A stretch of 56,070 nt of DNA from Sulfurimonadaceae bacterium (GTDB lineage Bacteria > Campylobacterota > Campylobacteria > Campylobacterales > Sulfurimonadaceae), in assembly GCA_016744905.1 (NCBI GenBank), contig JADGDM010000010.1:1-56070 (forward strand), given 5' to 3'. The translations under genes were made by a program, and so were the position numbers. Below, one piece after another: positions 836 to 53,352 of the stretch (positions are counted from its first letter, which is position 1; each line of letters starts with the position of its first letter). The notes under the pieces are model-generated. The model was given only the letters and a program-made list of their open reading frames with translations, did no database searches and was not told where the DNA came from.

Positions 836-2017
836 ATGAAAATACTCCACACTTCTGATTGGCACTTAGGTCAAAACTTCATGGGTAAAAGCCGTGAAGA
901 AGAGCATCAAGCTTTCTTGTCATGGTTGTCTGAGACAATTATCTTTGAAAAAATTACTGTTTTGATTGTGGCAGGGGATATCTTTGATACGGGGACACCA
1001 CCGAATTACGCACTTGAACTCTATTACAATTTTTTAACCAAACTCTCCTTATCAGCATGTGAAAATATTATTATCACTGCTGGAAATCATGACTCTATAG
1101 CCACCCTTAAAGCCCCAAAACAGCTATTAAAAGCACTCAATGTTCATGTTGTTAGTAGTGTGGATGAAGATGAGTTGGTTCCTATTTATGAAGAGGAACA
1201 ACTTGTCTCGGTTGTCTGTGCTGTTCCTTTTTTACGTGATGCTATGGTACGTAAAGCGCAGTCATCTGAAACCTCAACAGATAAAGAAAATGCCTTAAGT
1301 GAAGGTATTAAAGAACATTATAAAAATATTTATGAAGAAGCAAAGTTTTTATGCTCAGGTGAGAATATCCCCATTATTGCCACTGGGCATCTGACGACGG
1401 TTGGCAGTAAGACAAGTGAAAGTGAACGTGAGATTTATATTGGGGGAACGCTTGATATTGACAGTGCGTTTTTAGGAAAATATTTTGATTATGTGGCATT
1501 GGGTCATTTACATATCAACCAAAAAGTGGGCTGTAATCATGTGCGTTATAGTGGCTCACCTTTGCCTCTTAGTTTTAGCGAAGCGCACTCGGTTAAAAAA
1601 GTAAATATTATTGATTTTTATGATGGGATACTGAATGTGGTAGAGAAAGAGATACCTCTTAACCGACCTCTTTTAGTCTTACGTGGAGATTTGGAAAATA
1701 TTTTAGTCTCTTTAGAAAAGATAAGCAATAAAAGCACATGGATAGAAGTACATCTCAAAGATGAAAATCCATTTTTTGCCAATCAAAGTGTACGTGAGCG
1801 CGCTAGTGAATTAGAGTTGAACCTTTTAGCAGTGAAAATTGAGCGAAAAGAGCAAGCCTTACAAGCCAAAGAGTTAGAGGTTATTAGCTTAGATGAGTTA
1901 ACTCCTTTGGAGGTGTTTGAACAGCGACTTGATCAAGATGAGTTAGAGAGCAGTGAATTAAAAGAAGCCTTGATTTTAAACTTCAAAAAGATAATGGATG
2001 AGGTAGCGCACAGATGA
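836..2017 (+). CDS. sbcD: Exonuclease SbcD (Mre11-type subunit)
   Basis: Nuclease subunit of the SbcCD complex, which opens hairpins and trims protein-blocked DNA ends. The N-terminus has the calcineurin-like phosphoesterase signature (ILHTSDWHLGQ, then AGDIFDTG, GNHDS, and further on GHLTTVG and ALGHLH). At about 393 residues it has normal family length. An in-frame ATG lies two codons upstream at 830; ATG 836 is preferred because the family starts MKILHTSDWH. Neither start has a clear Shine-Dalgarno. Its stop overlaps the sbcC start (ATGA), so the two are translationally coupled and presumably made in stoichiometric amounts. Confidence 0.95.
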   Translation: MKILHTSDWHLGQNFMGKSREEEHQAFLSWLSETIIFEKITVLIVAGDIFDTGTPPNYALELYYNFLTKLSLSACENIIITAGNHDSIATLKAPKQLLKALNVHVVSSVDEDELVPIYEEEQLVSVVCAVPFLRDAMVRKAQSSETSTDKENALSEGIKEHYKNIYEEAKFLCSGENIPIIATGHLTTVGSKTSESEREIYIGGTLDIDSAFLGKYFDYVALGHLHINQKVGCNHVRYSGSPLPLSFSEAHSVKKVNIIDFYDGILNVVEKEIPLNRPLLVLRGDLENILVSLEKISNKSTWIEVHLKDENPFFANQSVRERASELELNLLAVKIERKEQALQAKELEVISLDELTPLEVFEQRLDQDELESSELKEALILNFKKIMDEVAHR

Positions 2018-5000
2018 AGATACATTCACTTAAAGCACTTAATATTAACTCTCTAAAGGGTGAAATCTCTGTTGACTTTGAAGCATTGACAAAAGAGAGT
2101 GCACTTTTCGCAATTACGGGACCAACGGGTTCAGGAAAAAGTACACTGCTTGACATTATCTCTTGTGCACTTTATGGAAGAACGGCACGTCTTAAAAATC
2201 CCAATGACCTGATGTCACGTCATAGTGGTGAGGCATATTGTGAGGTGGAATTTGAGATTAAGGGAAAAGTATATCGCTCTTCTTGGTCTCAAAAAAGAGC
2301 GCGAAAAAAACATGATGGAAACTTTCAAAGTGCCAAAATGGAACTCTCAGATGTTGAGCGCGCTGAAGTTTTGATGACGGGTTCTAGAGAGGTTCCTAAA
2401 TATATCGAAGAACTCTCTGGTTTGGATTTTGGGCGTTTTACCCAGTCGATGTTGTTGGCACAAGGGGGCTTTGATGCTTTTTTAAAAGCAGATGAGAAAG
2501 AACGGTCAGCACTATTAGAAAAGATAACAGGCACGCAGATATATGCAGAAATCTCAAAAGCAGTTTATGAAAAGTACAGCGCGCTGGATAAAGACATGGA
2601 GGCGGATAGACGTGTCTTAGATTCGATGACACTATTAGAAGATGAGGCGTTAGCTAAAAAAGAGCAGGAATTACGTGAATATATGGTTCAAAAGTTAAGT
2701 AGCGATAAAGGGCTTGAAGAGATTCATAATGCGCTGCAATGGAGAAGCACACTCGATGAGATGCAAAAAAACTTTGATAAACAAGTTTTACTTTTATCCG
2801 AAGCCACACTTTTAAAAGAGCAGAGCAGTAATGATTTTGAAAAGCTCTCTTTGGCCGAACGTGCGCTCAATGTTGAAGCTACATGGCGCGCTAAGACCTC
2901 ACTAGTTAACTCTCTTTTGCTTGATAAAAAAAATCTACTGGGGCTTGAAGATGAACAAGTGCAGATGAATGAAGCATGGATAAAAGCCCAAGAACTTTCT
3001 ACTTTTTCAAACATAAGCTTTGAGAAAGCCCGTGTGCATTTTGAAAAAGAGAATACAAAACTAAAAGCTTTGGCGACTGTTTTAACACAAAAAGAAGAGC
3101 GCTCTCTTAGTCGAAGAAATTTAGAAGAGCGTATTGAAAATAGAGAAACTATTTTAAAAAAGAGTGATTCAAATCTTGTACAATTAGAATCTTCTTATGA
3201 AAAACAAAGTAGTGAGATTGCTGAGATAAAATCATATTTAAACACACATGCAAAAGATGAAGACCTGTCAGAATCTTTAGGCTTGATAGAGCAGAACATC
3301 ATCTACTATAGTGAATCCTTACTGAACAGCAGTAGTCTAAGTAGTACGCTAGAACAGCAGTCTATTCTGTTTGAAAGTGAAGCTAATACTTTTGAGTTAC
3401 TTAAAAAAAATGTGGACACTTTGAAAACTGTTTATGAAGAAGCACAGGAACTGTACAACAAAGTTGATACCAGTGCGCAAGCGTTTGCCTTAGAAGAAGC
3501 AGTGTTAGAGAAAAAAGTAAGTGTGGATGAAAAAGCGCTTTTCAATTTTCAAAAACATCAAGAGATTCTTCTGAAAATCAAGAGTGAAGAGCAGTCTTTA
3601 ATGATTGGTCGTATCGAGATGATAGCCAAGATAGAAATGAGCAAGCTCTCTTTGGCACATCTCGATGAGATGAAAAAACATATCCAAACATTGCGGGCGA
3701 AAAAAGAGCGTGAGCAGTTGATACAGAAGTATGAAGAGGATAGAACACACTTGATAGCGGGTGAAGCTTGTAGTCTGTGTGGTTCGTTAGAACATCCTTT
3801 TGTAGAGCATCAAAGTGAGATTCATTTGGATGCCACTACTTTTATGATTAATGAAGCGCTTGATATGTTGGCTATCAAAGAGAAAGATTTTCAAGTCATT
3901 GAAAACGGACTGAGTGTTCAAGAGAGTAAGTTAGAAAGTAGTGCTTTGGAGATAAAAAAACTTCAAGAAGAGCGTACGGTTTATCCTTTATCTACCCAGA
4001 GTGAAGTAGACTTGAAAGAAGATCTTGAAAATTCAAATACTGCGCTTCTTTCACTTAAAGAGAGACGACTCAAACAAGATCAACTTTTAAAAGCTTTGAG
4101 TTTAGCCAAAGAACAATTCAATAATGAAGAAAAACTCCTTGAAGCAAAGAGATTCTTAGTCCAAAAGTTAGAGAGTGAAAAAGTACAGAATCATAGTGCG
4201 CTGGAAACCTCAAACCTAAAAAGTGATGCTTATTTTAAAACGCTACAGGTATATGCCGAAAACTTTTCATTTTCACTAAATGATTTAGACTTGGCGCTAG
4301 AAGATTTAACTAAAAGAAAGGGATACTACTTAAAAACGCAATTATTGCTTAAAAGTAGTGAAGAGAAACTGGCGCTTTGTAGTGTGGACAAAAAAGAGAG
4401 TGAAACCACTATCAAAGCTTTGAGTGCTGAGATAGCGCGAGACAGAGAGAATTTGTCTAATATCATGACAGAGATAAAAGCCTTAGTCGAAGAGGGGATA
4501 AGGATACTCAACGTTGTGGACATTACACTTTATGAACGTGAGCTGGAACAAAACTATAAAGTGGCGCAAAGTAACCATCAAGAAGCACAGAATGCATTTC
4601 AAACTTTAGGTGTTCAACTAGAGGAGCGCGCTGAGGTAAAACGTGTTTTATCATTTCGTATTGATAAAGATGAAAGAGAGTGTTCTGCTTTAACACAGAC
4701 CTTTATCGCGCTACTTCAAGAGAACAGTTTTAAAAATGAGGACGTCTTAAAAGATGCGCTTTTAGAGAGTGAAGTACGTGAGCTTTTACGTAAAAAGTGT
4801 GAAGCCATCGAGACGAAGTTTACACAAACACAGGCACTCTTTAAAGAGAGTGAGAAGCGATTAAAAGAGCACGCAGGGATGAACCTCAGTTTGAAACCGC
4901 TTAGTGATCTTGAAACTAAGGCAGCGCTTTTAAAACAAAAAAGTGACAGCTTTCAACACAGCGTGGGTGCGCTGAGTCAAGAACTTGAAATAAACAGTGA

Positions 5001-5562: not shown

Positions 5563-7046
5563 ACCTCTCTAAGTCACTCTACACGAAGGGCATTCAGTGT
5601 GAAAAACTGCTTTGGATAACAAAATACAAAAAAGAACTTCTCAGCTCTCCTGATGCCAGCGCATTGGCACGTTTTGAAACAGGTAATGTGGTAGGTGATT
5701 TGGCGTGTGCACTTTTTCCAAACGGTCGTGAAGTTCCTTACACACCTACTGATTTTCAAAAGATGTTAGAGACCACAGCGCGCTGGATGGAAGAGGGATT
5801 AGAATACATCTATGAGGCAAGTTTCCTCCATGCGGGTATCTTGGTTTTGGTTGATGTTTTAAAGGTGACCCCTCAAGGTCTTGAGATCTATGAGGTGAAA
5901 AGTTCGACTTCACTCAAAGATATCTATCTTCATGATGTCTCTATCCAACACTACGTGCTCAGAGCGCTGGGCTTTAATATTGTGGGTGATTATCTGGTGC
6001 ATATAGATAAAGAGTATATTTACTCTGGCGTGCTGGAGTTGGAGAAGCTTTTTAAGATTGTAGATGTTGGTGATGAGGTGGGCGCGCTACTGCCTGAGAT
6101 TCCTACTAAATTGGCGTCTTTTGAGAACTGCCTAAATGACAAAGAAAATGAACCGGATATTGATATCGGATCACACTGTAACAAACCTTATGAATGTGAA
6201 CTCAAAGCGTATTGTTGGCAAACACAGCACGCTATCCCTGAGTACTCGATGTTTAATATTTTTAATCTGGGTTCTAAGAAACAGCTTGAACTTTATGAAA
6301 AAGGTATTGTAGATATAAAAGATATCCCTGATGATTTTCCTATGACGGCACTTCAAAAGCAGAAAGTTGCAAACTACAAAGCAGAAGAAACATATATCGA
6401 TAAGGCGGGCATTCAAAGCTTTTTAGAGACCTTGAACTATCCAATTTATCATCTGGATTTTGAGACTTTTCAGCAAGCGATTCCTGAGTTTGAGGGTTTG
6501 AGTCCTTATGTACAGATTCCTTTTCAGTACTCGCTACATATTGAGCGCGCTGATGGGACGCTGGAACATAAAGAGTTTTTAGCCAAAGAGGGAGAAGACC
6601 CCCGATTGACACTGGCAGAGCAGTTGGTTCAAGATATTCCTGAGGATGTTTGTGTTTTGGCGTACAACATGAGTTTTGAAAAAGGGGTCAATGCCAAACT
6701 TGCAGATCAGTTTCCGCATTTAACTGCCCATCTTTTGAAAATCAATGAAAATATAAAAGACCTTATGGTACCGTTTCAGAAAAAATATTATGTGACACCG
6801 TCGATGCAGGGGAGTTACTCTATAAAGTATGTCCTTCCTGCCTTGGTTCCCTCTATGGAAAATGCCTATCAAGAACTGAACGGTATTCAAAATGGAAGTG
6901 ACGCCATGAATGCTTTTCCTGCACTCAGCGCGCTGGACGACGAAAAAAGATTAGCCACACGTAGCGCATTACGCGCGTACTGTAAGCTCGATACATTGGC
7001 GATGGTAAAAGTACTAGAAAAACTAAAAGAGGTTTGTGATGATTGA
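5559..7046 (+). CDS. DUF2779-type protein: Cas4-like nuclease module fused to a DEDD exonuclease-like module
   Basis: Predicted double-nuclease protein of 495 residues; no biochemical function is established for the family as far as I know. The N-terminal part resembles Cas4/PD-(D/E)XK nucleases: Cys14, an EVK motif at about 112-114, and a cysteine cluster C207, C213, C219 that with Cys14 could bind an iron-sulfur cluster. The C-terminal part has RNase H/DEDD-like motifs: DFET (D300, E302), AYNMSFE and YCKLDT. ATG 5559 is chosen over GTG 5553 because GGAG lies 8 bases upstream. It is embedded between sbcC (4-bp overlap) and dgt (8-bp overlap), which points to a role in DNA end processing or defence. 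Confidence 0.8.
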   Translation: MNLSKSLYTKGIQCEKLLWITKYKKELLSSPDASALARFETGNVVGDLACALFPNGREVPYTPTDFQKMLETTARWMEEGLEYIYEASFLHAGILVLVDVLKVTPQGLEIYEVKSSTSLKDIYLHDVSIQHYVLRALGFNIVGDYLVHIDKEYIYSGVLELEKLFKIVDVGDEVGALLPEIPTKLASFENCLNDKENEPDIDIGSHCNKPYECELKAYCWQTQHAIPEYSMFNIFNLGSKKQLELYEKGIVDIKDIPDDFPMTALQKQKVANYKAEETYIDKAGIQSFLETLNYPIYHLDFETFQQAIPEFEGLSPYVQIPFQYSLHIERADGTLEHKEFLAKEGEDPRLTLAEQLVQDIPEDVCVLAYNMSFEKGVNAKLADQFPHLTAHLLKINENIKDLMVPFQKKYYVTPSMQGSYSIKYVLPALVPSMENAYQELNGIQNGSDAMNAFPALSALDDEKRLATRSALRAYCKLDTLAMVKVLEKLKEVCDD

Positions 7047-8490
7047 TTATACAAAGAAAATTAGAAGTGATAGAGAAGTCTATCCGATAGAGGATATCAA
7101 CTACTCCAGCGAAAGTGACCGAGGACGTATCATCTCTTCACCTGCTTTTAGACGTCTTCAAAAACGTACCCAAGTCTTTCCCCTTGAAATGAATGCCGCT
7201 GTACGTAGTCGTCTCACACATTCACTGGAAGTGCAACAGACCAGTCGTTATATTGCTAAAACTATCTTGGCGTCTATTAAAGAAAATGGCGAGACTGAGA
7301 AGTTTGGACTGAGCGGTTTAGAAGATGCTTTTATCTCCATTTGTGAGATGTCTGCACTGCTTCATGACATCGGAAATCCTCCTTTTGGTCACTTTGCGGA
7401 AGCGTCGATGAATCGATGGATTGCCAAAGAGATTCCTACTGTTTTTGAGAAGTTTGAAGAAGATGCGTTTAAAAGTATGTTGATTAAAGATTTGAGTAAT
7501 TTTGATGGGAATGCACAGGCGATACGTATGGTTGAAAAACTACAACGTCTAAACCTCTCCTACACCCAAAGTGCCTCAGTTTTAAAATACACACGCGCCG
7601 CAGGAAGTTCCAAACCTTTAAAATCAGAACCACTCTCTTATGTCAAAAAGAAACCAGGATTTTACTACTCAGAAGAAGCCTTTGTAAAAAAAATGTGTAG
7701 CGCGCTGGGTATGGAAGAGGGACGTCGTTTTCCACTGACCTATATCATGGAAGCGGCGGATGATATCTCTTACCTGACGGCAGATATCGAAGATGCAGTT
7801 GATAAAGGTATCTTAACGTTAGAACGTATTTATGAACTGATCCAGATAGAGATCATGGCCGTTTATAAAGATGAGGTATTAGAAGAGACCTACCTTATGA
7901 AGTTGGTTGAAAAAGCCTACACCAATGCACGAAAAAATGAAAAACCCTATCAGTTTAATATGTTCCTCACTCTCCTGCGCGCTTGGCTCATCAATGATCT
8001 GGTAAAACATGTAAGTCACGTCTATCTTGAAAATCATCAAGCCATTTTTGACGGGGAATTTAACAGTGCGTTACTAGAATTTGAAAGTAACAGCAGCTAC
8101 ACAAAGGCAGTAAAAGCCTTACAAATACTCTCTATTAAACATATCTACGGAAACCACGAAGTAGAGACTTTAGAGCTAAAAGGTCACGCTATCTTAACAG
8201 GTTTACTCAATCATTACCGACCTGTTTTAGAGTTGGATAAAGAAGAAGTCAGCGCGCTGGTAGAAGAGAAAAGAGTAGACGATGTTATCGCTCAAAAACT
8301 CTTCCGTAGGCTCTCTAAAAAACATGTGGTCGCCTACTCCAAAAGTGTTGAGCTAATTGATGAGACTTTTTGTGAAGAGAAAAAATCTGTTTTAGAACTT
8401 TACTATAGAGTGAGACTTGTATTAGACTACATCAGTGGTATGACAGATGATTACGCATTACAAGAGTTTCAGACCTTGTCTGCGTTGTAG
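7039..8490 (+). CDS. dgt: Deoxynucleoside triphosphate triphosphohydrolase (dGTPase family)
   Basis: HD-domain enzyme that hydrolyses dNTPs to deoxynucleoside and triphosphate. The N-terminal SSPAFRRLQ segment, the RLTHSLEV histidine, the metal-binding HDIGNPPFGH signature and a later EAADDISYL match the family. The 483-residue length is typical. ATG 7039 is preferred over GTG 7036 because AGAGG sits 6 bases before it; this start overlaps the preceding nuclease gene by 8 bp. Being last in an operon with sbcCD and a nuclease, it may adjust the nucleotide pool or destroy dNTPs during repair or phage infection; that link is inference. Confidence 0.9.
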   Translation: MIDYTKKIRSDREVYPIEDINYSSESDRGRIISSPAFRRLQKRTQVFPLEMNAAVRSRLTHSLEVQQTSRYIAKTILASIKENGETEKFGLSGLEDAFISICEMSALLHDIGNPPFGHFAEASMNRWIAKEIPTVFEKFEEDAFKSMLIKDLSNFDGNAQAIRMVEKLQRLNLSYTQSASVLKYTRAAGSSKPLKSEPLSYVKKKPGFYYSEEAFVKKMCSALGMEEGRRFPLTYIMEAADDISYLTADIEDAVDKGILTLERIYELIQIEIMAVYKDEVLEETYLMKLVEKAYTNARKNEKPYQFNMFLTLLRAWLINDLVKHVSHVYLENHQAIFDGEFNSALLEFESNSSYTKAVKALQILSIKHIYGNHEVETLELKGHAILTGLLNHYRPVLELDKEEVSALVEEKRVDDVIAQKLFRRLSKKHVVAYSKSVELIDETFCEEKKSVLELYYRVRLVLDYISGMTDDYALQEFQTLSAL

Positions 8491-10990: not shown

Positions 10991-12295
10991 TTAAAAGATA
11001 TGGCTAAAGTGGATATATAGCGCGCTGCCTTCTCTACTTGTTCCATAGTCCATCATCATCACAGTGGAAAGATTCCAGGCGATGCGCATTCCTGCGCCGT
11101 AGGTGTATTTTATATTCTCAAAGTTTGTCTCTTGAACGGAATCAAAAACAGACCCTGCATCTATAAAGGGCACCAACATCACGTCAAAAGATTGCTCCAT
11201 TAGGGTGGTTTGATAGACTTGAAATCTTGTCTCTATGTTGGCCAGTGTTTTGATGTCTGCGACAAAACGATCTTGTTGATATCCTCTTAGTGTTCTGTAT
11301 CCGCCAAGACCATATTGATAAGCATCTTCGTAGCCGATCATATTTTTTCTATAAAAAGGGGTATCACCACTTTGGATACTGTATATCCAGCGTCCTGCAA
11401 ATGTGACAAAATTTAGCTGATCTAGGGTGAGAAAGTTTTTAGTCGAAAAAGTGTATCTTTGATGTTCATAATCACTAGCAATTGCTTTGGAGTAAAACTC
11501 TAAGGTTAAGTCATGCGCACTACCATTTTTAGCATTGCTGGCATAATCACGTGAGTCATAGACCAGTGAAAACTTCAGTCCATTATCAAATCCACCAGCA
11601 AAACCAACAATAGCTTCTTCTTCATTATCATCATAAAGTTTTGAAGCAATATTTTTTGTATCATCAAGTTGGGCATTTTGATAATTTGTTATGTTGGCAT
11701 GAGAGAGATTTAAGCCCATTGCAGCACGCATTATTCCACCAAAAAGATCATATTCAAGTTCTAATTCAAAGGAAGGGATCTCAAGGATATAACGGTTGTA
11801 AAAAGGAGAGTCTATACTTTTTAGATAGTTCTCTTGTTCGTGTGCATTGACAAATGTTTTACCATCAGGGGTATCCAAGTCATTTAAAGATGTAGAGGTT
11901 GTTCCAAAGTAGTGGGCTTGTGTGTTTTTTTCATAGATAAGGTTTGAGGTTACTTTAAAAAGTGTATCAGCAACGTAAGGGGCATCATAATGCAGGGCAT
12001 ATTTTGAAAAACCATTGGTTGTTTGAAAAAATTGCATGTAGACTCTGTGTTTATAGGGGACGTATTTAAAGGTGGTGTCCTCTTTTTTTCCATAGTCAAA
12101 CCAAAACACACGCGCCCCATATCCAAAGCCTAAGTTTTCATCATAGTTAAACAGTGGAAGACCCGTATAATGTGCACCTTCTTGCTTCTTTGTGAGGCTC
12201 TCTTCACTCATGGTTGGTTTGTTTTGAAGAAGTTCAGATAGCTCTGCGCTGTAGGCAAAACTTATGACGAGCAGTAGAAATAGAAGTTGTTTCAT
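10991..12295 (-). CDS. Outer-membrane beta-barrel, Omp85/D15 surface-antigen-like
   Basis: A 434-residue exported protein: signal peptide ending near SYSAEL, then alternating aromatic/polar strands typical of a 16-strand barrel, with an RTLRGYQQDRF-type segment and an AGSVFD turn near the C-terminus that resemble the Bac_surface_Ag (D15) barrel, and a terminal Phe. No POTRA repeats are evident, so it is a barrel-only family member rather than BamA itself. The start at 12295 is chosen for the signal peptide; the longer frame adds an unlikely extension. It is divergent from the exonuclease gene. Confidence 0.75.
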   Translation of the reverse strand: MKQLLFLLLVISFAYSAELSELLQNKPTMSEESLTKKQEGAHYTGLPLFNYDENLGFGYGARVFWFDYGKKEDTTFKYVPYKHRVYMQFFQTTNGFSKYALHYDAPYVADTLFKVTSNLIYEKNTQAHYFGTTSTSLNDLDTPDGKTFVNAHEQENYLKSIDSPFYNRYILEIPSFELELEYDLFGGIMRAAMGLNLSHANITNYQNAQLDDTKNIASKLYDDNEEEAIVGFAGGFDNGLKFSLVYDSRDYASNAKNGSAHDLTLEFYSKAIASDYEHQRYTFSTKNFLTLDQLNFVTFAGRWIYSIQSGDTPFYRKNMIGYEDAYQYGLGGYRTLRGYQQDRFVADIKTLANIETRFQVYQTTLMEQSFDVMLVPFIDAGSVFDSVQETNFENIKYTYGAGMRIAWNLSTVMMMDYGTSREGSALYIHFSHIF

Positions 12296-12423
12296 TAAGT
12301 CCCGATATTGATGGTATATTATTAAAATATTATCATAATTATATGGCACTGTGTCATAAAAGATAAAATAATGATGAAATTTGGTCATAATTCGAGCAGA
12401 AATATAAAAGTAGGGCAGTATCT

Positions 12424-12948
12424 ATGATTGTACTAGATTTTGAGACCAACAGTGGAAATGTTCAAGATGTTATTGAGGTAGCAGCGTGCAAAGTGCGTAA
12501 AGAAAATGGGCAATATATTGTTGTGGAGACTTTTCATCGTTATTATTATTCGCAGTATGAGGTAAACCCTTATGCGCTGGCTGTGCATAAACTCACCCCA
12601 GAGGCTATTGAAATCCTTCGTGAAGATAGCGATGAGGCTGAGTATGTGGAGTACTTTAAAGATGATGAAGACTTTATTGCCTTTGCGTCTGACTCTGAAA
12701 CCTTAGTCGCACACAACATCAACTTTGAGTTACGTCATCTTAATGGATGTGTGGAGTTTGAAAATCATCTCTGCACCATGAAAGAGAATAAAAAAGCGGT
12801 TCAAGCGAAAAATATAAGAGGCAATCTAAAAAATCCAAAACTTATCGAAACTTGTCTGCACTATGGTATAGATTTTGATGAAGAGCAGTATCATAGCGCG
12901 CTGTATGATGTAGAGAAGACTATTGACATACTTAATTGTATGCCGTAG
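12424..12948 (+). CDS. DEDD-family 3'-5' exonuclease (DnaQ/RNase T-like)
   Basis: A single exonuclease domain of 174 residues. Motif I is VLDFETN near the start, motif II is AHNINFE, and motif III is the C-terminal SALYDVEKT with His replaced or shifted. It resembles the epsilon proofreading subunit or RNase T but is too short to carry extra domains. Whether it acts on DNA or RNA cannot be told. It is separated from the divergent barrel gene by 128 bp and convergent with the YceI gene, 15 bp away. Confidence 0.8.
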   Translation: MIVLDFETNSGNVQDVIEVAACKVRKENGQYIVVETFHRYYYSQYEVNPYALAVHKLTPEAIEILREDSDEAEYVEYFKDDEDFIAFASDSETLVAHNINFELRHLNGCVEFENHLCTMKENKKAVQAKNIRGNLKNPKLIETCLHYGIDFDEEQYHSALYDVEKTIDILNCMP

Positions 12949-12963: not shown

Positions 12964-13581
12964 CTATTTTGGATTACAAACGGCAACAATACGGGTTTTA
13001 AATCCGATGTTTACATCACTCCACGTTTTACCCTTGTGCAGATCAAAACAGGCTTTATTGATTGAACTCAGCGCGCTGTGTGCTTGAAAGTCAAAAATAT
13101 CGATAATACCGCTACCTTCTAAAAGACCATCAAAATAACTGAAGTTCATAGGGGTTGTTTTAGTGACGCCATTCATCGTAATCTCAACTTGAAAAATACC
13201 TGTTTTAGGTTTCCCTTTTTCACGTTTTCCTGCACTGTATCCCACAATCTTCGCCGTGATATTTTTTCCACTCATCTTTTCAAAAAAGAAACTCAGTAGC
13301 TTTGCATCACGAGCAGGGTGATTTGAGTTGACACTGGCGGTATCGATGTTGATAGATGAACCGACAAATATCTGTGTGAAGTTGGTACCACTTTTCTTTA
13401 TAGCGGTGTAGCTTGTTTTATCAAATTTTCCACCAACACCTAGTTTGGCAGGGGTTTTATACGCTTTCCAGTTCACTTCGATGTTACCTGTTTGTGCAAG
13501 GGTACATGAACCGTTTGCTTTTGACATGGTGGCAGATGAGAGTGTGATGGTGAGCGCGAGGATAAGTAGTGTTTTGAACAT
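12964..13581 (-). CDS. YceI-family periplasmic protein
   Basis: A 205-residue exported protein with a 17-19 residue signal peptide. The mature part fits the YceI lipocalin-like family that binds isoprenoid or polyprenyl lipids: VNWKAYKT near the start of the domain, the GKFDKTSYT segment, and a SHPARD-like NSNHPARDAKLLSFFF block. Two cysteines (near residues 26 and 202) could form a disulfide. It is divergently transcribed from the cytochrome c peroxidase gene across about 100 bp, which could share a control region. Confidence 0.8.
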   Translation of the reverse strand: MFKTLLILALTITLSSATMSKANGSCTLAQTGNIEVNWKAYKTPAKLGVGGKFDKTSYTAIKKSGTNFTQIFVGSSINIDTASVNSNHPARDAKLLSFFFEKMSGKNITAKIVGYSAGKREKGKPKTGIFQVEITMNGVTKTTPMNFSYFDGLLEGSGIIDIFDFQAHSALSSINKACFDLHKGKTWSDVNIGFKTRIVAVCNPK

Positions 13582-23660: not shown

Positions 23661-24056
23661 TTAAAAAAACCAACCCTCTTCCTCTTCTCCCGTACAAATC
23701 TTTTTAGATGTTTCAACAAATTCATTCAAATCTTTATCTGCACCTTTTTCTAAAGCAAGATACGATTTTAAATTGTATTCTTTAAAAATTTTATCATCTA
23801 AACAATCACACAGCGTCGTATTGTACTCGCTCACGCAGCGCGCTTGAAGTTCTGCTTTATCTCTGTCTTGCCAAGTAAAGTATTTATTATAAAAAGGAAC
23901 CGCTGCCCAGATAAAAAAACCAAATGTTAAAACGATGTTGATAACATATTCACGTTTTTTAGTTTCAAAGTATTTTTTTATATCATAAGCAATAAAAATT
24001 AGAAAAGCTATCTCTAAGGCAATGGTAAACCAGTCACTCTCATAAAAATCAAACAT
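23661..24056 (-). CDS. Small membrane protein of unknown function
   Basis: 131 residues with two predicted transmembrane helices (about 10-25 and 38-57), then a soluble acidic tail with four cysteines, three of them in ARCVSEYNTTLCDC and one in KKICTG, that could form disulfides if periplasmic. No family recognised. It is monocistronic. The AGCGCGCT palindrome occurs within it, so it looks native to this genome. Confidence 0.7.
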   Translation of the reverse strand: MFDFYESDWFTIALEIAFLIFIAYDIKKYFETKKREYVINIVLTFGFFIWAAVPFYNKYFTWQDRDKAELQARCVSEYNTTLCDCLDDKIFKEYNLKSYLALEKGADKDLNEFVETSKKICTGEEEEGWFF

Positions 24057-39350: not shown

Positions 39351-40239
39351 TAATTTACATCTCTTAAACGCAGAATTTTTATATCTACTTATCCCCACTT
39401 GGGTAATAGTATTTTGGTTGATTTTTATTCAAGATAATGCGAAAGTCTGGAAAAAACATATAGATGCCAATTTTTTGCCATATTTATTGGATCGTTCGAG
39501 CAAGACAATTTTTAAAACGCCTTTTTACCTTGGAATTGTTATGAGTTTTATGGTGGTAGCTCTTGCCTCTCCTGCGTGGAAAATAAAGGCTCAAAATGGC
39601 TCTAATGAAATTAGCGAAGTAGTTTGGGTCTTAAATGTCTCTCACCGTATGCAAAGTCGTGACTTGATGCCGACAAGAATCAAGCGCGCTATCTTTAAAA
39701 TAGATGACTTCCTTACTCAACGGATTGATATTCGCTCGGGATTGGTTGCTTATTATGGTTCGGCTCACCTTGTGATGCCATTGAGCAAAGATAAAAATAT
39801 TATCAATGCTTTTGCTTCATCTTTGAGTCCAGAGATAATGCCACTTCGAGGAGAGGCGCTGTATGAGGCAATAAAATTGGCTAGTAGGCAGTTTATAGCA
39901 GTTGATGGAACGATAGTGGTTTTGAGCGATACTTTGAGTGCCTCTGAAATGAAGAAAATCAATGAAGACAAAGCACTAGAAAAGTATAAAATAATTTTCT
40001 ATAATATTACTTCATCTGCGTTAAAAAACGAGAGTATGAGAGATGCCTTAGAGATCAGTTTTGATGATAGTGATATAGTGCGCTTGAGTGATGAAATAGA
40101 TCATCAGTTTGATAGTTATCAGACAAAGAAGAAGGGAGAATATGAAAATGGGGGCTTCTATCTGCTGCCTCTTATCCTCTTTTTAATGTTGTTTTGGTTT
40201 AGACGAGGCTTTATTGGTGAGCTTTGGAGGATAGAGTAA
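39343..40239 (+). CDS. BatB-like VWA-domain membrane protein with degenerate metal site
   Basis: 298 residues with N-terminal helices, a VWA domain and a final transmembrane helix. Where BatA has D-x-S-x-S this protein has LNVSHRM, with Asp replaced by Asn and the last Ser by Arg, so metal binding is probably lost. It overlaps batA by 8 bp and batC by 1 bp. It may act as the structural partner of BatA, an arrangement common in BatA/BatB pairs. Confidence 0.82.
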   Translation: MFNNLHLLNAEFLYLLIPTWVIVFWLIFIQDNAKVWKKHIDANFLPYLLDRSSKTIFKTPFYLGIVMSFMVVALASPAWKIKAQNGSNEISEVVWVLNVSHRMQSRDLMPTRIKRAIFKIDDFLTQRIDIRSGLVAYYGSAHLVMPLSKDKNIINAFASSLSPEIMPLRGEALYEAIKLASRQFIAVDGTIVVLSDTLSASEMKKINEDKALEKYKIIFYNITSSALKNESMRDALEISFDDSDIVRLSDEIDHQFDSYQTKKKGEYENGGFYLLPLILFLMLFWFRRGFIGELWRIE

Positions 40240-40862
40240 TGCGAAGATTTTTTATCCTTTTACCTTTTTTAACAGCCTTGATTATTGGACTATGGTATGC
40301 CTTTATATTTGATAAAGAGCCTAAACGATTATGGATCAGTGCAGACGCAGAGGCGCAGAGTCTTCAAAAAGCAGGTAAGCTTGAAAAGGCGTTATCAACT
40401 TATGAAAATAAGCTCTCTATTGCTTCGATATATTTTCAAAAAGGTGACTTTAAAAAAGCATTGGACATTTATGAACTTATCAGTTCAAAAGAGGCTTTTT
40501 ACAACCGTGGAAATACCCTTGTGATGTTGGGAAAATACAATGATGCCATAGAAAACTATCAACTGGCACTACAAGCCGATGGGAATTATCGGGAAGCAAA
40601 AGAGAATATGGCTATTGCCTTAGCGCGCCAAGCTGAGCTTGATAAGTTTAAAGGCTCTGGAAAAGGAACGGGTGGAAAACTTGCCGCTGATAAAATTGTT
40701 TATGACAATAAAAGTAAACAAGGTGAGACTATTCAAGAACACGGAAAGAAAAAAGAGGGCTCTAATGAGCAGTGGTTAGACAGACTTGAGACTTCACCAC
40801 AAGGTTTTTTAAAAGCAAAATTCTCTTATCAATATTCTCAGCAAAAGAGGGGACAAAAATGA
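40239..40862 (+). CDS. BatC-like TPR protein
   Basis: 207 residues. ATG 40239 is used because GGAGG lies 8 bases upstream; the ORF could extend to 40224. An N-terminal transmembrane helix (LLPFLTALIIGLWYAFIF) leads to TPR-like repeats (FKKALDIYELI, NRGNTLVMLGKYNDAIENY, REAKENMAIALARQA) and a Gly/Lys-rich tail. BatC proteins dock other components of the Bat complex. It overlaps batB by 1 bp and batD by 4 bp. Confidence 0.85.
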   Translation: MRRFFILLPFLTALIIGLWYAFIFDKEPKRLWISADAEAQSLQKAGKLEKALSTYENKLSIASIYFQKGDFKKALDIYELISSKEAFYNRGNTLVMLGKYNDAIENYQLALQADGNYREAKENMAIALARQAELDKFKGSGKGTGGKLAADKIVYDNKSKQGETIQEHGKKKEGSNEQWLDRLETSPQGFLKAKFSYQYSQQKRGQK

Positions 40863-44766: not shown

Positions 44767-45378
44767 ATGAAAGATAAAATAGCGTGTAGTGGTTGTGGAT
44801 TAATTGTTCATCGTGTGGATGTGGATGAAGAGAGTATCTCTGTTTGTCCACGTTGTAAGACTACCATTGAGAGTAGGGGAATGGATTTCTCTACTATTAT
44901 TGCTTTGGCATTCAGCGCGCTGATACTTTATGTTCCTGCGGTAAGTTTGCCACTTCTAACAGCAGAAGTTGGAGGGATTTTAGAAAAAAATTCACTTTTA
45001 ACGGCGGTAGGATATTTTTTTCAAGAGGGTTATGTCTTGGCCTCGGGAGTACTTCTTTTTACTACTGTATTAATCCCTATTATTTTAATATTATCTATAC
45101 TAACGATGTTGATTCCTATTCATTTTAATCGTTTTCCTTATGTTATAAAAGTAGCTTATAAACTGTTTACCCTGTTTCATTATTGGGTACTTTTTGATGT
45201 TTATATTTTATCAATGATTGTTGCGAGTGTAAAACTAGAAGTAACGACGGAGTTGCTATTGGGCTCAGGAATGACCTTCTTTTTATTGGAGTTTATCTTG
45301 ATGTTCTTTCTCTTAAAATGGTTTGAACCTTATGATGTTTGGAGGAAAATTGAAAAAAGTAATTACCGATATCAGTAG
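44767..45378 (+). CDS. PqiA/LetA-like half protein, N-terminal
   Basis: 203 residues: two CXXC pairs (CSGC and CPRC) forming a zinc- or rubredoxin-like ribbon, then four transmembrane helices. This matches the first half of E. coli LetA/PqiA, which drives lipid transport with an MCE tunnel. The partner gene downstream codes for the second half, so here the usual single protein of about 420 residues is split. The ends overlap by 29 bp. Confidence 0.85.
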   Translation: MKDKIACSGCGLIVHRVDVDEESISVCPRCKTTIESRGMDFSTIIALAFSALILYVPAVSLPLLTAEVGGILEKNSLLTAVGYFFQEGYVLASGVLLFTTVLIPIILILSILTMLIPIHFNRFPYVIKVAYKLFTLFHYWVLFDVYILSMIVASVKLEVTTELLLGSGMTFFLLEFILMFFLLKWFEPYDVWRKIEKSNYRYQ

Positions 45379-45958: not shown

Positions 45959-48593
45959 AATACAACAACCAAAAATAAAGAAAAAAGGGGCCATCTGGAT
46001 TATATGGCTCATTCCGATTATTGCTTTTATTTTTGCTTCATGGATGAGTTTTGATTATTTTAAAAATTCTGGTGAAGATATAATAGTTACGGTAGATGAT
46101 GCTTCTGGCTTTATCTTAAAAAAGACACCTCTCAGTTATAAAGGGGTGAGCGTTGGTTCGGTGAAAAGTATAGAAATTAATCAAGATGATTTTTCTAAGA
46201 TTGATGTGACTGTGCGCGTTGAAAAACATGCTATCGATTCACTTCTTCGAGAAGGTACTAAAATCTGGCGTGTATCTCCAAAGCTTAGTTTAACAGAGGT
46301 TAGTGGGTTAAGTTCAATGCTTCCTGGTCCTTATTTAGAAATTATGCCAGCGGTTCCAAATTTAGAAATGTTAAAATCTTTACCCAAACAGACTGTCTTT
46401 ACGGCACTCAATGAAGCTCCTGAAAATGTCTTCAAAAAAGGGATGTTGCTCTATTTAGAAAGTAAATCAAAAATCAGTGCAAGTGCGGGTACCCCGATAT
46501 TATATAACAAACAGATTGTTGGTAAAGTGGTAAAAAAAGTGCTCAAAGATGATTATGAAACTTCACGTCTCTCTTTACTGATTAAGAAAAAATATGTGAC
46601 TTTGATTAAAGATACCTCTACTTTTCATGAAATTAGTGGTTTAGATATTAAAGCATCTCTCTCTGGTGTAAAAATTAAGATGGATTCTTTAAGTACACTG
46701 GTTGCAGGAGGTATCTCGTTTGATTCCCCTCCGGGTAAGAGTGTTGAAGAGAAGCATATTTTTAAACTGTATGAAAATGCGCATGCCCCTCTTATTTCTG
46801 AAAAGGATGTTGTCCTTAATTCTGATCAAGCGCATGAGCTAAATATAGGTGAGTCTAAGGTTTATTTTAAAGGGGTTGAAGTTGGTTTTGTTAAGGATCT
46901 AGATTTCAACATTGAAGAAGGATCAACTAAAATTTTTATCAGTTTTGATAAAAAGTATCGTCATTTGGCAAATTCAAGTGCTTACTTTTGGATTGTTAAG
47001 CCTGAGCTTGGATTTAACAAAATAAATGGACTCGACGCTATTGTTAAAGGTAAATATATCACCTTTAGTGCGAATAAACATGGCGTAGATCAAAGTGAGT
47101 TTTTACTACATAATCACGCTCCAACGATAAAAGGTAAAAGAATACTACTCAGCGCGCCAGATGCAGGTTCGTTAAAAGTTGGTGGAGCGCTCTTTTATAA
47201 AAACCTTGAAGTGGGTGTTATTGAAAGTATCAAACTTCATAATGATAAACAGCAGGTGAATATCTCTTTAAAAATTTTTCAAAAATATAGAAGTTTGGTC
47301 AATGACTCTACACTGTTTTATAATAGTAGTGGGGTTGAAATAGATGCTTCTTTAGCCGGTGTGAAAGTGAATATTGGTTCACTAGAAAATACCTTACGTG
47401 GAGGTATCTCATTTCAGACGGCTGACTTTTCTCAAAAAAGTGATCGTTCTAGTTTTATTTTACATGTATCAAAAAGTGAAATTGATGATATCTTGTATAG
47501 AAATTCTGGAGGTATGCATATTTACCTCTCCTCTGCAACGATGGGTTCTATAAAGTCAGGTGCACCTATCTTATATAAAAAAATTCCTGTTGGAAAAGTA
47601 CTCTCTTATTCATTAGATCACTCGAGTAAAAATATTATTGCAGACATTTATATAGAAAAAAAGTATACCTCTTATGTCAATAATTCAACAAAATTTTATA
47701 ATGCAAGTGGGGTTGAAGCTAAGATCTCTCTTGGGGAAATTGCTGTAAATACTGAGTCTTTAAGCTCTATGATGAGTGGAGGCATCGCATTTTATACGCC
47801 AGATATTGGTACTTTGACCAGAGATGACTTCGAGTTATATAACTCTTATGATGAAGCGCAAGAAGATATGACAGAGGTTATATTTAGTGTGCCAAAGCTT
47901 TCTGGAATTAAAGTAGGTAGCCGTATCCACTATAATGAGATGGAAATCGGTAAGATTGCTTCTATTGGTATGCATGATGAAACATTTGAGTTAAAAGGTT
48001 TGGTCGACCCTCGATATAAACACTATATTTGTCAAGATGCTTATGTTTGGACTGAGAGTGTTAGTGTCTCTATTAACGGGGTTAAAAACCTAGAATCAGC
48101 ACTGCGAGGCTCAGTCATTAAACTTAGTGGGAACTATTGTAAAAAGGCCGTTGAAGAGCTACCTATTATGAGTACTCCACCTTCTCCTCACTTTAGTGAT
48201 GAAGGATTACGTGTAACACTCCGAGCAAGACGCTTAGGCAGCTTAAATGTAGGTTCTCCACTATTTTATAGACAGATACAAATTGGTACAGTAGAAAAAA
48301 TCAATTTGGTAGATGATGCAAGTGCAGTCGACATTGAACTGTTTATAAAAGAAGAGTTTGCATATATCATTCGTAATAATTCAAAGTTTTATTATGCGGG
48401 TGGTTTAGGTGTTGAAATTTCTTTAACAGGTATGAAAGTGAAAACAGAGACCTTATCAACTCTAATGCAAGGTGGAATCAATGTAGTGACTCCACCAGAG
48501 TATACAAAAAAAGCAAAAATGCATGCTCGATTTTTTCTTAACCTCTCTCCAGATGATGCCTGGTTAAATTGGACTCCAAGTATAACTAAGTAG
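45951..48593 (+). CDS. LetB/YebT-like MCE protein with seven MCE units
   Basis: 880 residues: one N-terminal transmembrane helix (WIIWLIPIIAFIFASW) then seven MCE repeats, each starting with a GxxxxYxGxxVGxV-type motif at about 61, 181, 301, 410, 537, 656 and 768. E. coli LetB has 877 residues and also seven MCE domains stacked into a periplasmic tunnel between inner and outer membrane, so this is the LetB class rather than three-domain PqiB. Predicted role: lipid movement across the envelope with the split LetA. A hairpin overlaps its stop codon. Confidence 0.92.
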   Translation: MSEIQQPKIKKKGAIWIIWLIPIIAFIFASWMSFDYFKNSGEDIIVTVDDASGFILKKTPLSYKGVSVGSVKSIEINQDDFSKIDVTVRVEKHAIDSLLREGTKIWRVSPKLSLTEVSGLSSMLPGPYLEIMPAVPNLEMLKSLPKQTVFTALNEAPENVFKKGMLLYLESKSKISASAGTPILYNKQIVGKVVKKVLKDDYETSRLSLLIKKKYVTLIKDTSTFHEISGLDIKASLSGVKIKMDSLSTLVAGGISFDSPPGKSVEEKHIFKLYENAHAPLISEKDVVLNSDQAHELNIGESKVYFKGVEVGFVKDLDFNIEEGSTKIFISFDKKYRHLANSSAYFWIVKPELGFNKINGLDAIVKGKYITFSANKHGVDQSEFLLHNHAPTIKGKRILLSAPDAGSLKVGGALFYKNLEVGVIESIKLHNDKQQVNISLKIFQKYRSLVNDSTLFYNSSGVEIDASLAGVKVNIGSLENTLRGGISFQTADFSQKSDRSSFILHVSKSEIDDILYRNSGGMHIYLSSATMGSIKSGAPILYKKIPVGKVLSYSLDHSSKNIIADIYIEKKYTSYVNNSTKFYNASGVEAKISLGEIAVNTESLSSMMSGGIAFYTPDIGTLTRDDFELYNSYDEAQEDMTEVIFSVPKLSGIKVGSRIHYNEMEIGKIASIGMHDETFELKGLVDPRYKHYICQDAYVWTESVSVSINGVKNLESALRGSVIKLSGNYCKKAVEELPIMSTPPSPHFSDEGLRVTLRARRLGSLNVGSPLFYRQIQIGTVEKINLVDDASAVDIELFIKEEFAYIIRNNSKFYYAGGLGVEISLTGMKVKTETLSTLMQGGINVVTPPEYTKKAKMHARFFLNLSPDDAWLNWTPSITK

Positions 48594-48605: not shown

Positions 48606-48670
48606 GTTAATAGAACTTTAAGTAAGTATTGCCTATAATTGCGCACTAAATTTTAATAAGGATATGCTTC

Positions 48671-49458: not shown

Positions 49459-49462
49459 TATT

Positions 49463-51091: not shown

Positions 51092-52007
51092 AGCAGCTAA
51101 TTTAGAGGAAGCTTACTCCCAAGCTGCCTTAAAATTAGAGTGTTCAATCACAGAATTGAATACTGAAGTTATACAACAACCTTCAAATGGTTTTTTAGGT
51201 CTTTTTAAAAAGAGTGCGATTATTGTTGCTTCTTGTAAAATTGAAACTGTTACAGAAGTGCTACTTACTCCTGAACCAGAAGCGACAGTTGTTATAGAAG
51301 AGAGCTCTATTGAGGTTATAGAAACGCAGGTTTCTGAAGAAGAGATAGTAGTTGTAAAAAGCGAAGAGAAAAAAGTCAAGGTTCAAAAAAAGCGTGAAGA
51401 GAAGAAAAAACCTGACTTAAATGAGACAATGATGCCGGCATCATTTGTAACAACTCAAGATGACGACGATGATGTTTCTCAAACTTCTTATTATGATTCA
51501 TATGACGATGAAGAGATCACAGAAAATATGTACAGTGCCAACGACAATGATGGGATAGTGTCAGAAATTCAAGAAGAGATTAATGAACTTTTTTCTCATG
51601 TGTGTTTTGAAATTGACAGTATTGCGGTTAGTATGTATGATGAAAACACATTGTTGGTTGAATTTTCAGGTAAAGATGCGGCGCTCCTTATTGGTAAAGA
51701 GGGTTACCGTTACAAGGCACTTTCTTATATGATTTTTAACTGGATTAATTCTAAATATCGTCTTCAATTACGTCTTGAGATCGCAGAATTTTTGAAAAAT
51801 CAAGAAGAGTCTATTTCTCATTATCTTGTTGGTGTGATTGAAAATGTAAACAGAGATGGGCGCGCTCAAACAAAAATACTTGATGGTGTTTTAGTTCAGA
51901 TTGCTCTTAAACAGTTACGTACTGCTTTCCCTGAAAAATATGTCGCTATCCGCTCAACTCGTGATGGAAACAAATTTATTATCATCAATGAATACAACAA
52001 CTATTGA
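51078..52007 (+). CDS. jag: RNA-binding protein Jag/KhpB
   Basis: 309 residues: Jag N-terminal domain (FLGLFKKSAI near 45), a Glu/Val-rich and Lys/Glu-rich disordered linker, a KH domain (FSGKDAALLIGKEGYRYKAL, cut at GKEGYRYKAL) and an R3H domain at the C-terminus (RDGRAQTKILDG, FPEKYVAIRSTRDG). Involved in small-RNA or mRNA control and cell-wall elongation in other bacteria. It overlaps yidC by 14 bp and mnmE by 20 bp. Confidence 0.92.
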   Translation: MIKIEAANLEEAYSQAALKLECSITELNTEVIQQPSNGFLGLFKKSAIIVASCKIETVTEVLLTPEPEATVVIEESSIEVIETQVSEEEIVVVKSEEKKVKVQKKREEKKKPDLNETMMPASFVTTQDDDDDVSQTSYYDSYDDEEITENMYSANDNDGIVSEIQEEINELFSHVCFEIDSIAVSMYDENTLLVEFSGKDAALLIGKEGYRYKALSYMIFNWINSKYRLQLRLEIAEFLKNQEESISHYLVGVIENVNRDGRAQTKILDGVLVQIALKQLRTAFPEKYVAIRSTRDGNKFIIINEYNNY

Positions 52008-53352
52008 TATTAATGACACCATAGCAGCGATTGCAACTGCTCATGGTGTTGGCTCTATCGCTATCATTCGTCTTAGTGGCTCTCGTGCCATTAAGATTGC
52101 TTCTAAGATTACCAAACTTCAAGAATTTACTCCACGTCATGCATATTTAAAAAAACTTTATAATAGTAAAGATGAACTTTTAGATGAGTCTTTAGTTATC
52201 TATTTTAAAGGACCCTACAGTTTTAGTGGTGAAGATATTATTGAGTTCCAATGTCATGGTGGTTTGGTTTTAGCGCAGCAGATACTAGAAACAACTTTAA
52301 GTTTTGGAGCGCGCTTGGCTGAACCAGGTGAATTTTCAAAACGTGCTTTCTTTAATGGAAAAATAGATTTGAGTGAAGCAGAAGCCATTGCTCAGATGAT
52401 AGAAGCTAAAAGTGAAGATGCTGTAAAAATCCTAGCGCGCCAGATGAAAGGCTCTTTACGTGAGTATATAGAGAGTTCTCGTGATGAACTTATTCATGCA
52501 CTTGCCTACTCTGAAGTGAGTATTGATTACGCGGAGGAAGATCTTCCTCAAGATATTATCGATCAGCTTATAGCGCGCATTGATGCTTTAAAAAAGAAGT
52601 TAGAAAAAACGCTTTTTGCTTCAAAAAGTAGAGCAGGGTTGATGCAAGGTTTTAAAGTTTCCATCGTTGGAAAACCAAATGTAGGCAAAAGTTCACTGCT
52701 TAATGCACTGCTTAATTATGAGCGCGCTATTGTCAGTGATATTGCGGGAACAACCCGTGATACTATTGAAGAAGAGGTTCGTGTGGGCACACATCTCATT
52801 CGTATTGTAGATACTGCGGGAATTCGTGATGCTAGTGATGAGATAGAACGTATTGGTATTGAGCGTTCTATTGAAGCGATTGAGCACAGTGATATTGTGA
52901 TTGCACTGTTTGATAATTCACGTGCTATTGATGAAGAAGATAGACGAATAATAGAGTTGGTTGAACGTTATAAAGATGAAAAAGATATTCAGGTGATTGT
53001 TAATAAGTCAGATCTTGAAACTCTTTTTGATCATAGCGCGCTGCCTTTTGATGAGATCTTACTGATAAACTCTAAAGATGATGTGAGCGCGCTGATTAAA
53101 AATTTAGAGACCATTATGGACTCTAAAAATATTTCAGATGAGATTATGTTGATATCAAGTCGTCAAATTGACGCCGTCAATGCAACACTTTCAAATTTAA
53201 GAGAGTCTATTGACCCCTTAGAAGATCAAGAGCTGGAGATTTTTTCTTTCCATATGAATGAGGCGATCAAAGCATTGAACTCCATTACACGTCCTTATGA
53301 TAATGAAGAGATGCTGGATAAGATGTTTGGCTCTTTTTGTTTAGGAAAATAG
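51988..53352 (+). CDS. mnmE: tRNA modification GTPase MnmE
   Basis: 454 residues. Folate-binding N-domain, then the GTPase with GKPNVGKSS, DIAGTTRDT and NKSDL, and the invariant C-terminal FCLGK. With MnmG it modifies wobble uridine. ATG 51988 fits the family start MNTTTIDINDTIAAIAT; longer frames run inside jag. Its 3' half is packed with AGCGCGCT palindromes. Confidence 0.95.
   Translation: MNTTTIDINDTIAAIATAHGVGSIAIIRLSGSRAIKIASKITKLQEFTPRHAYLKKLYNSKDELLDESLVIYFKGPYSFSGEDIIEFQCHGGLVLAQQILETTLSFGARLAEPGEFSKRAFFNGKIDLSEAEAIAQMIEAKSEDAVKILARQMKGSLREYIESSRDELIHALAYSEVSIDYAEEDLPQDIIDQLIARIDALKKKLEKTLFASKSRAGLMQGFKVSIVGKPNVGKSSLLNALLNYERAIVSDIAGTTRDTIEEEVRVGTHLIRIVDTAGIRDASDEIERIGIERSIEAIEHSDIVIALFDNSRAIDEEDRRIIELVERYKDEKDIQVIVNKSDLETLFDHSALPFDEILLINSKDDVSALIKNLETIMDSKNISDEIMLISSRQIDAVNATLSNLRESIDPLEDQELEIFSFHMNEAIKALNSITRPYDNEEMLDKMFGSFCLGK

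Follow-up and report, generated by a model that had tools for sequence, protein, structure and literature searches.

A lineage-specific iterated palindrome, AGCGCGCT, and at least three further genome-scale word dialects in Sulfurimonadaceae

Copies of AGCGCGCT in the window

The 56,070 bases of contig JADGDM010000010.1 from a Sulfurimonadaceae bacterium (assembly GCA_016744905.1), referred to here as the window, carry 32 exact copies of the palindromic octamer AGCGCGCT, all of them between positions 1797 and 53093 and all 32 inside predicted genes (Table 1). A sequence-only reading of this DNA had counted about 32 copies in that span by eye, had placed the random expectation far below one, and had noted the word in all three coding frames and in genes on both strands. 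Each of these statements holds. Dinucleotide shuffles of the window (G+C 36.95%) give a mean of 0.33 copies and a maximum of 2 in 100 shuffles, a first-order Markov model predicts 0.23 copies, and the observed copies are divided 18/9/5 among the three frames, with 29 in genes on the plus strand and 3 in genes on the minus strand. Gene calls underlying these and all other computed counts are longest open reading frames (ORFs) and are uncurated. The window is mildly enriched relative to the genome mean (32 copies vs 21.5 expected, p = 0.02).

Two genic contexts can be described more closely (labels from sequence). Comparison of an mnmE-like gene, which carries four copies, with 75 homologues shows that one copy entails no residue change, one places E where N or D is usual, and two lie at variable places in the protein. 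Exact copies are absent from two long stretches of the window, 30855-36748 and 44922-52307, the former of which includes two adjacent sulfatase-like genes at 31823-34972.

Table 1. Exact copies of AGCGCGCT (exact match, with residues read in the frame of the gene) and copies of the one-letter variant AGCGCGCC, a variant class that is enriched, in the window
Word	Position	Strand	Gene	Residues	Remark
AGCGCGCT	1797..1804	.	830-2017 +	ERA	exact
AGCGCGCT	2357..2364	.	2014-5562 +	ERA	exact
AGCGCGCT	2578..2585	.	2014-5562 +	SAL	exact
AGCGCGCT	4625..4632	.	2014-5562 +	ERA	exact
AGCGCGCT	5777..5784	.	5553-7046 +	TARW	exact
AGCGCGCT	6544..6551	.	5553-7046 +	ERA	exact
AGCGCGCT	6927..6934	.	5553-7046 +	SAL	exact
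AGCGCGCT	7699..7706	.	7036-8490 +	SAL	exact
AGCGCGCT	8251..8258	.	7036-8490 +	SAL	exact
AGCGCGCT	11019..11026	.	10991-12388 -	SAL	exact
AGCGCGCT	12895..12902	.	12424-12948 +	SAL	exact
AGCGCGCT	13070..13077	.	12964-13581 -	SAL	exact
AGCGCGCT	15624..15631	.	14925-16751 +	SAL	exact
AGCGCGCT	16299..16306	.	14925-16751 +	SAL	exact
AGCGCGCT	20244..20251	.	19181-21343 +	ERA	exact
AGCGCGCT	20933..20940	.	19181-21343 +	SAL	exact
AGCGCGCT	21371..21378	.	21343-22527 +	QRA	exact
AGCGCGCT	23837..23844	.	23661-24056 -	QARC	exact
AGCGCGCT	24244..24251	.	24142-25056 +	SAL	exact
AGCGCGCT	25749..25756	.	25726-26301 +	LARS	exact
AGCGCGCT	25798..25805	.	25726-26301 +	SAL	exact
AGCGCGCT	27171..27178	.	26888-29464 +	ERA	exact
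AGCGCGCT	27617..27624	.	26888-29464 +	SAL	exact
AGCGCGCT	30847..30854	.	30289-31104 +	SAL	exact
AGCGCGCT	36749..36756	.	36033-37004 +	PARY	exact
AGCGCGCT	37790..37797	.	37007-37930 +	SAL	exact
AGCGCGCT	39683..39690	.	39343-40239 +	KRA	exact
AGCGCGCT	44914..44921	.	44767-45378 +	SAL	exact
AGCGCGCT	52308..52315	.	mnmE-like, 51901-53352 +	GARL	same residues in nearly all 75 homologues; no residue cost
AGCGCGCT	52721..52728	.	mnmE-like	ERA	E (5) here; homologues mostly N (56) or D (11)
AGCGCGCT	53035..53042	.	mnmE-like	SAL	variable protein position
AGCGCGCT	53086..53093	.	mnmE-like	SAL	first two residues variable among homologues
AGCGCGCC	2885..2892	-			possible weaker copy
AGCGCGCC	6081..6088	-			possible weaker copy
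AGCGCGCC	15354..15361	+			possible weaker copy
AGCGCGCC	29326..29333	+			possible weaker copy
AGCGCGCC	40622..40629	+			possible weaker copy
AGCGCGCC	47151..47158	+			possible weaker copy
AGCGCGCC	51859..51866	-			possible weaker copy
AGCGCGCC	52434..52441	+			possible weaker copy
AGCGCGCC	56030..56037	+			possible weaker copy

Genome-wide abundance and independence from codon usage

Nor is the word confined to the window. The genome from which the window comes (the source genome; 3,006,917 bases in 122 contigs) contains 1152 copies of AGCGCGCT, compared with 2 copies of the backwards-read control. A 374-kb sample of this genome, comprising the window and 19 readable stretches and having 90% of its DNA in genes, holds 128 copies, 120 genic and 8 intergenic, with the frames represented 59/32/29. 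The finding of copies in 18 of the 19 readable stretches leads us to reject an artefact of the window or of contamination. When codons are shuffled synonymously within genes, a mean of 4.4 copies and a maximum of 10 are obtained in 100 shuffles, compared with the 120 genic copies observed, so that the counts approach neither Markov nor codon-level expectation and the earlier contention that codon or amino-acid bias is insufficient is borne out.

A by-product of codon usage, amino-acid preference or composition, or alternatively a family of mobile repeats, might nevertheless be suspected from the fact that 46% of the copies (59/128) encode Ser-Ala-Leu. Bias of this kind is rejected by the outcome of the synonymous shuffle, the use of all three frames and the 8 intergenic copies; a longer repeat unit or mobile element is likewise rejected because the flanks of AGCGCGCT carry little information beyond one base. 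We therefore find this explanation scarcely credible. The fuller consensus is cAGCGCGCTg, in that 95 of the 128 copies have the preceding C or the following G, and 42 have both. The tripeptide Ser-Ala-Leu itself occurs 149 times in the sample, where composition predicts 56, and AGCGCGCT spells 59 of the 149. From this excess it seems that the proteome has been bent by the word.

Sister words in Sulfurimonadaceae

Among the other 227 of 228 genomes in the family, AGCGCGCT reaches at most 91 copies (in G021, where the control has 65). We regard a genome as word-bearing when it has at least 100 copies of a word and at least 3 times as many as of the backwards control, and the list of such genomes was compiled by hand from the family counts. 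In a scan of 396 genomes of the order, the next highest counts of AGCGCGCT are 155 (control 250) and 138 (control 4), and five further genomes exceed the cut (G314, G379, G456, G529 and G536), with no more than about 86 copies per Mb vs 383 in the source genome. A milder excess of AGCGCGCT is seen in another family (f13), in which four genomes of genus g61 have 111-138 copies and 2-6 of the control.

When k-mers were counted in the window and in 80 loci of relatives, found by means of YidC (56-64% protein identity), other lineages proved to iterate other words, with the logos TTACATGTAR, TTCCACATGCCAAG, TAAACGCAR and YCACGCAR. At genome scale the highest counts among the 228 family genomes are 1668 for CACATGCC (803+865 on the two strands), 1768 for TACATGTA and 2331 for AAACGCAG (1187+1144). 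These three words have no core common to all of them, two are non-palindromic, and TACATGTA lacks GC. A fifth word, CTCACGCA, is seen in two loci only, from Sulfurimonas indica (9 copies vs 0.57 expected) and a metagenome-assembled genome (6 vs 0.34). Like AGCGCGCT, the sister words exceed what synonymous shuffling leaves: 120 vs 11 for AAACGCAG in genome G193, 192 vs 24 for CACATGCC in G117, and 91 vs 17 for ACATGTAG and 68 vs 15 for TACATGTA in G087.

By the above cut, TACATGTA is borne by 40 genomes, AAACGCAG by 32, CACATGCC by 20 and AGCGCGCT by 1, giving a total of 92; the remaining 136 of the 228 bear none of the four. Excluded as near misses were G019 (99), G214 (99), G104, G121 and G181 for TACATGTA and, with at least 100 copies of AAACGCAG and less than 3 times the control, G007, G009, G019, G021, G035, G219, G221, G224, G225 and G226; the marginal AAACGCAG genomes G100 (111 and 30 by strand), G131 and G163 were retained. 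The words are nearly exclusive, one genome having two words compared with 12.0 expected by chance (P 0.00005 in 20,000 draws made without regard to kinship). This sole two-word genome, G215 (271 copies of TACATGTA and 109 of CACATGCC), has possibly been caught mid-switch or is a mixed assembly. A quick single-gene tree of YidC with 81 rows groups the words by clade, with TACATGTA and AAACGCAG each found in separate parts, and 6 word changes are needed among the worded rows when the minimum possible is 4. The four genome-scale words thus vary from lineage to lineage and are stable inside each one. AGCGCGCT is a real iterated word, present genome-wide and specific to its lineage, and the family has at least four dialects of this kind. 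Searches for an iterated word in G043 (genus g15) and G003 (genus g3) gave none of similar strength, and some lineages are therefore wordless or have a word of another form.

Positional conservation of copies

We compared pairs of loci at 72-80% identity, counting the copies that are identical in both members against an expectation from flanking sequence of the same phase; the pairs are non-independent, being taken in both directions and sharing ancestry. When both loci have the same word, identical copies number 130/414 for AAACGCAR (45 expected), 99/246 for CACATGCC (20 expected) and 85/262 for the TACATGTA group (27 expected). When the second locus has another word, the corresponding values are 20/1393 (133 expected), 0/517 (40 expected) and 29/761 (51 expected), and for loci without a called word they are 81/2202 (204 expected), 8/909 (70 expected) and 26/1216 (101 expected). 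Copies are therefore held in place 3-5 times better than their flanks in same-word pairs and worse than their flanks in different-word pairs. Where a word is not favored, its rarity by itself should lower sharing, and it is the contrast between the classes of pair that constitutes the result.

Strand, intergenic position and inverted pairs

When strand is assigned by GC skew in genome samples, the two non-palindromic words exhibit no leading-strand bias (119/139 for CACATGCC in G117 and 61/51 for AAACGCAG in G193), and CACATGCC in the loci around yidC is also unbiased (38/49). AAACGCAR is an exception: in five yidC loci its copies favor the strand of yidC (85/49, p 0.002) as well as the coding strand (83/42, p 0.0003). 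This last observation, together with the existence of over-represented octamers that differ by lineage, would be in line with a recombination signal of the Chi type. Chi acts in one orientation, however, and is disfavored because the sister words are strand-symmetric in the genome samples; moreover, two of the dialects are palindromic. Apart from the AAACGCAR loci, the non-palindromic sister words show no orientation with replication, and we consider a Chi-like role very improbable.

In G117, 61 of 258 copies of CACATGCC are intergenic, compared with 27.7 expected, and 14 of these lie in convergent gaps. Copies in this genome also form close inverted pairs between genes, for example TTGGCATGTGGAA with TTCCACATGCCAA; 14 such pairs were recorded, and six of them start 8-17 bp past the last sense codon of the preceding gene. 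The words are spread fairly evenly along the genome (chi-squared per degree of freedom 1.10-1.73 over 20 kb stretches). This evenness, the palindromes in two dialects and the keeping of copies in place could all be accommodated if the words were sites of an abundant intracellular DNA-binding protein, for example a chromosome organizer or a recombination factor, with a specificity that drifts from lineage to lineage. Under such a model, however, every change of word would mean rewriting a thousand selected sites, and no drive at the level of the population would be there to do it. In addition, the symmetry of the words varies, and the close inverted pairs behind genes that one dialect shows are a feature more familiar in uptake sequences. 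Taken together, these points make a DNA-binding protein of this type an unlikely explanation.

Methylation and the resemblance to HIP1

The sequence-only reading had compared AGCGCGCT to the highly iterated palindrome 1 (HIP1) of cyanobacteria and to uptake sequences, which are indeed the nearest styles for a genome-wide iterated palindrome, and it had suggested a role in either methylation or DNA uptake. Like HIP1 (GCGATCGC), AGCGCGCT is a GC-rich palindromic octamer distributed through coding DNA, with its outer letters the most variable, although the word is a different one and GCGATCGC has 0 copies in the window. In the sample of the source genome the commonest one-letter variant is AGCGCGCC/GGCGCGCT, in which A1 becomes G (42 copies vs 1.1 by first-order Markov model), and the change of A1 to T (TGCGCGCT) gives 25 vs 2.3. 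Of the inner variants, G2 to A is present 19 times (3.2 expected) and C3 to T 26 times (4.9 expected), and each other variant at most 8 times. Deviations are hence most enriched at the outermost letter, as expected of a HIP1-like word and as Elhai reports for HIP1 (PMC4390886).

By analogy, a methyltransferase might mark part of AGCGCGCT, and methyl-directed mismatch repair, or some other methylation-dependent process, might create and keep the palindrome. The model that Elhai puts forward for HIP1 ties palindromes to methylated GC, and other palindromes, in exceptional cyanobacteria, are linked there to methyltransferases (PMC4390886). A search of the source genome (G000) for PF01555 enzymes gave none, and one for PF00145 (C5) enzymes gave a single protein. 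The gene for this C5-methyltransferase (locus L103, contig C88, 127-1380, minus strand) faces a 360-aa ORF (1451-2533, plus strand) for which neither Pfam nor NCBIfam yields a match. A divergent layout of enzyme and ORF is typical of restriction pairs. The enzyme's three best plasmid relatives come from Moraxella, Psychrobacter and Parabacteroides and match it with 53-56% identity across almost the full length, and, judged from such features, the two genes are apparently a mobile restriction-modification pair. Contig C88 (11,194 bases) carries three copies of AGCGCGCT, at 3498, 5616 and 7942, all outside the pair, which therefore belongs to the same genome.

A methylation-based origin of the HIP1 kind must also contend with the sister words, borne by many lineages, which share no core and are not all palindromes. 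Since the model needs methylated GC, TACATGTA is not covered by it, and inverted pairs behind genes are not known to be part of the model (PMC4390886). The two families searched yielded no orphan methyltransferase, and the only C5 enzyme resembles one member of a restriction pair; we regard this origin as rather unlikely. Of the two functional suggestions in the sequence-only reading, methylation has thus lost ground in part, and uptake has gained from the like use of partly non-palindromic words in related genomes and from the inverted pairs behind genes seen for one word.

A possible role in DNA uptake

Genes expected of natural transformation are present. ComEC is found in 210 of the 228 family genomes, including the source genome (C30:23649-24431), which also has eight matches to N_methyl prepilins as well as T2SSG, and in which a gene cluster reads as a secretin, a GspE-like ATPase and pseudopilins (the secretin and ATPase labels being taken from the sequence). 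The best explanation, which we consider reasonably likely, is that the family tags its own DNA in words that differ by lineage, here AGCGCGCT or more fully cAGCGCGCTg, in a system that works like the uptake sequences of Neisseriaceae and Pasteurellaceae. In its favor are the genome-wide excess, the independence from codon usage, the nearly exclusive words, the positional conservation of sister words, the strand symmetry of two words in genome samples, the inverted pairs of one word and the transformation genes. We infer uptake of DNA to be the selecting agent and the reader of the word to be a receptor carried on a pilus. In such a system a surface part of the transformation machine would prefer DNA that bears the word, and fragments bearing it would enter and recombine more often; as a result, alleles carrying the word would replace alleles that have lost it, and the word would therefore accumulate, in any frame, wherever proteins tolerate it, with its positions held over evolutionary time. 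Were the preference of the receptor to change, the genome would slowly be rewritten in the new word, giving rise to nearly exclusive dialects among relatives.

Sequence-specific uptake is placed in two bacterial families in a 2016 review (PMC5031613). In Neisseriaceae, eight dialects of the DNA uptake sequence (DUS) that share three bases have been described (Frye et al. 2013; PMC3630211). Uptake sequences are reported to have no orientation bias and to form inverted repeats in about 10% of cases, the author doubting that they act as terminators (PMC1939737); the reference list of the 2016 review includes a title on uptake sequences in terminators (PMC5031613). The Sulfurimonadaceae words resemble DUS in their hundreds to thousands of short copies, their lineage dialects, the lack of orientation bias in genome samples, the inverted pairs that one dialect has close to the ends of genes and the accompanying transformation genes. 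They differ in that the phylum is another, no common core is seen, two words are palindromic, and no counterpart of ComP stood out, none having been sought by ComP sequence. The resemblance to the uptake signal sequence (USS) of Pasteurellaceae lies in a short word (9 bases in USS), copies within genes and dialects within the family. Word and phylum are different, however, and the receptor predicted for Pasteurellaceae in a 2025 paper, ComN (ComN/PpdA; PMC12616744), has no matched proven gene here.

A precedent for self-recognition exists within the same phylum. The methylated site that serves Campylobacter jejuni as an uptake signal has the consensus RAATTY. DNA uptake in this species is started by the prepilin-like protein Cj0683 and likewise involves a DNA signal, methylated EcoRI sites (PMC10046745). 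That signal is a methylated common site, unlike the over-represented words described here. Among open-licence papers, a search for 'DNA uptake sequence' with Sulfurimonas or Campylobacterota gave none on such words in this family, judged by title among the matches listed; an Aliarcobacter paper that matched has the term in its reference list only. Papers containing the letters AGCGCGCT include, by title among the matches listed, none on a bacterial genome word.

Several observations weigh against a role in uptake. ComEC does not discriminate between worded and wordless genomes, since it occurs nearly everywhere, in genomes that iterate none of the four words as well. No receptor was found, and the nine prepilin-like proteins of the source genome (the eight N_methyl matches and one neighbor) are neutral or acidic, none being basic. 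A FimT-like prepilin (contig C67) was considered as receptor and is disfavored, given that it is present in 181 of the 228 genomes, with and without words, and by eye does not track them. Searches of open-licence papers brought up no uptake experiment in Sulfurimonadaceae. AGCGCGCT is a palindrome, which the uptake sequences described in PMC1939737 are not, and AAACGCAR shows the strand bias noted above. Only CACATGCC has an intergenic excess, the values for the other three words being 8 vs 12.4 expected in the source genome (where the palindrome makes inverted pairing hard to define), 12 vs 14.6 in G193 and 9 vs 9.5 in G087. Measured with a comparison pool that covers part of each genome, less-shared genes of the source genome are only weakly poorer in copies (440 vs 300 per Mb, p = 0.039), and G117, G193 and G087 show no difference in density (p 0.84-1). 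The evidence for conservation comes from sister words alone, AGCGCGCT having no close relative for comparison, and among the few comparable copies of the CTCACGCA group 0/4 are conserved. Finally, an account by gradual drive leads one to expect an excess of one-letter variants, but these are near chance for CACATGCC in G117 and for AAACGCAG in G193, the last letter excepted.

If the words are uptake tags, they probably represent a third origin of uptake sequences besides those in Neisseriaceae and Pasteurellaceae. We put forward more tentatively, as something that may well not hold, the fuller proposition that self-DNA uptake evolved independently in Sulfurimonadaceae with a new kind of receptor, switching among unrelated words, two of them palindromic, with hundreds to more than 1000 sites rewritten per switch. 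Were this true, uptake-tag evolution would have an independent replicate in a third and distant family, with at least four dialects at genome scale among 228 species. One could then ask how one such word gives way to another, whether a word is kept by drive or by selection, and what protein reads it. The words would also predict which sulfur-oxidizing lineages exchange genes.

Additional observations

In the sample of the source genome the non-palindromic words CTAAGGCA (39 copies vs 6.0) and AGACTTAG (45 vs 9.1) are also over-represented, and ACTAGT is depleted (17 vs 77). The purine-rich words CAAAAGAG, AAAAAGAG and AAAAGAGA are above expectation in several family genomes (the G000, G117 and G087 samples and several loci), with AAAAGAGA being the one seen in the source genome. 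At locus L114 (249-7388, plus strand), a 1689-aa protein without a Pfam match is followed by three prepilin-like proteins, and these genes are a possible pilus-tip operon.

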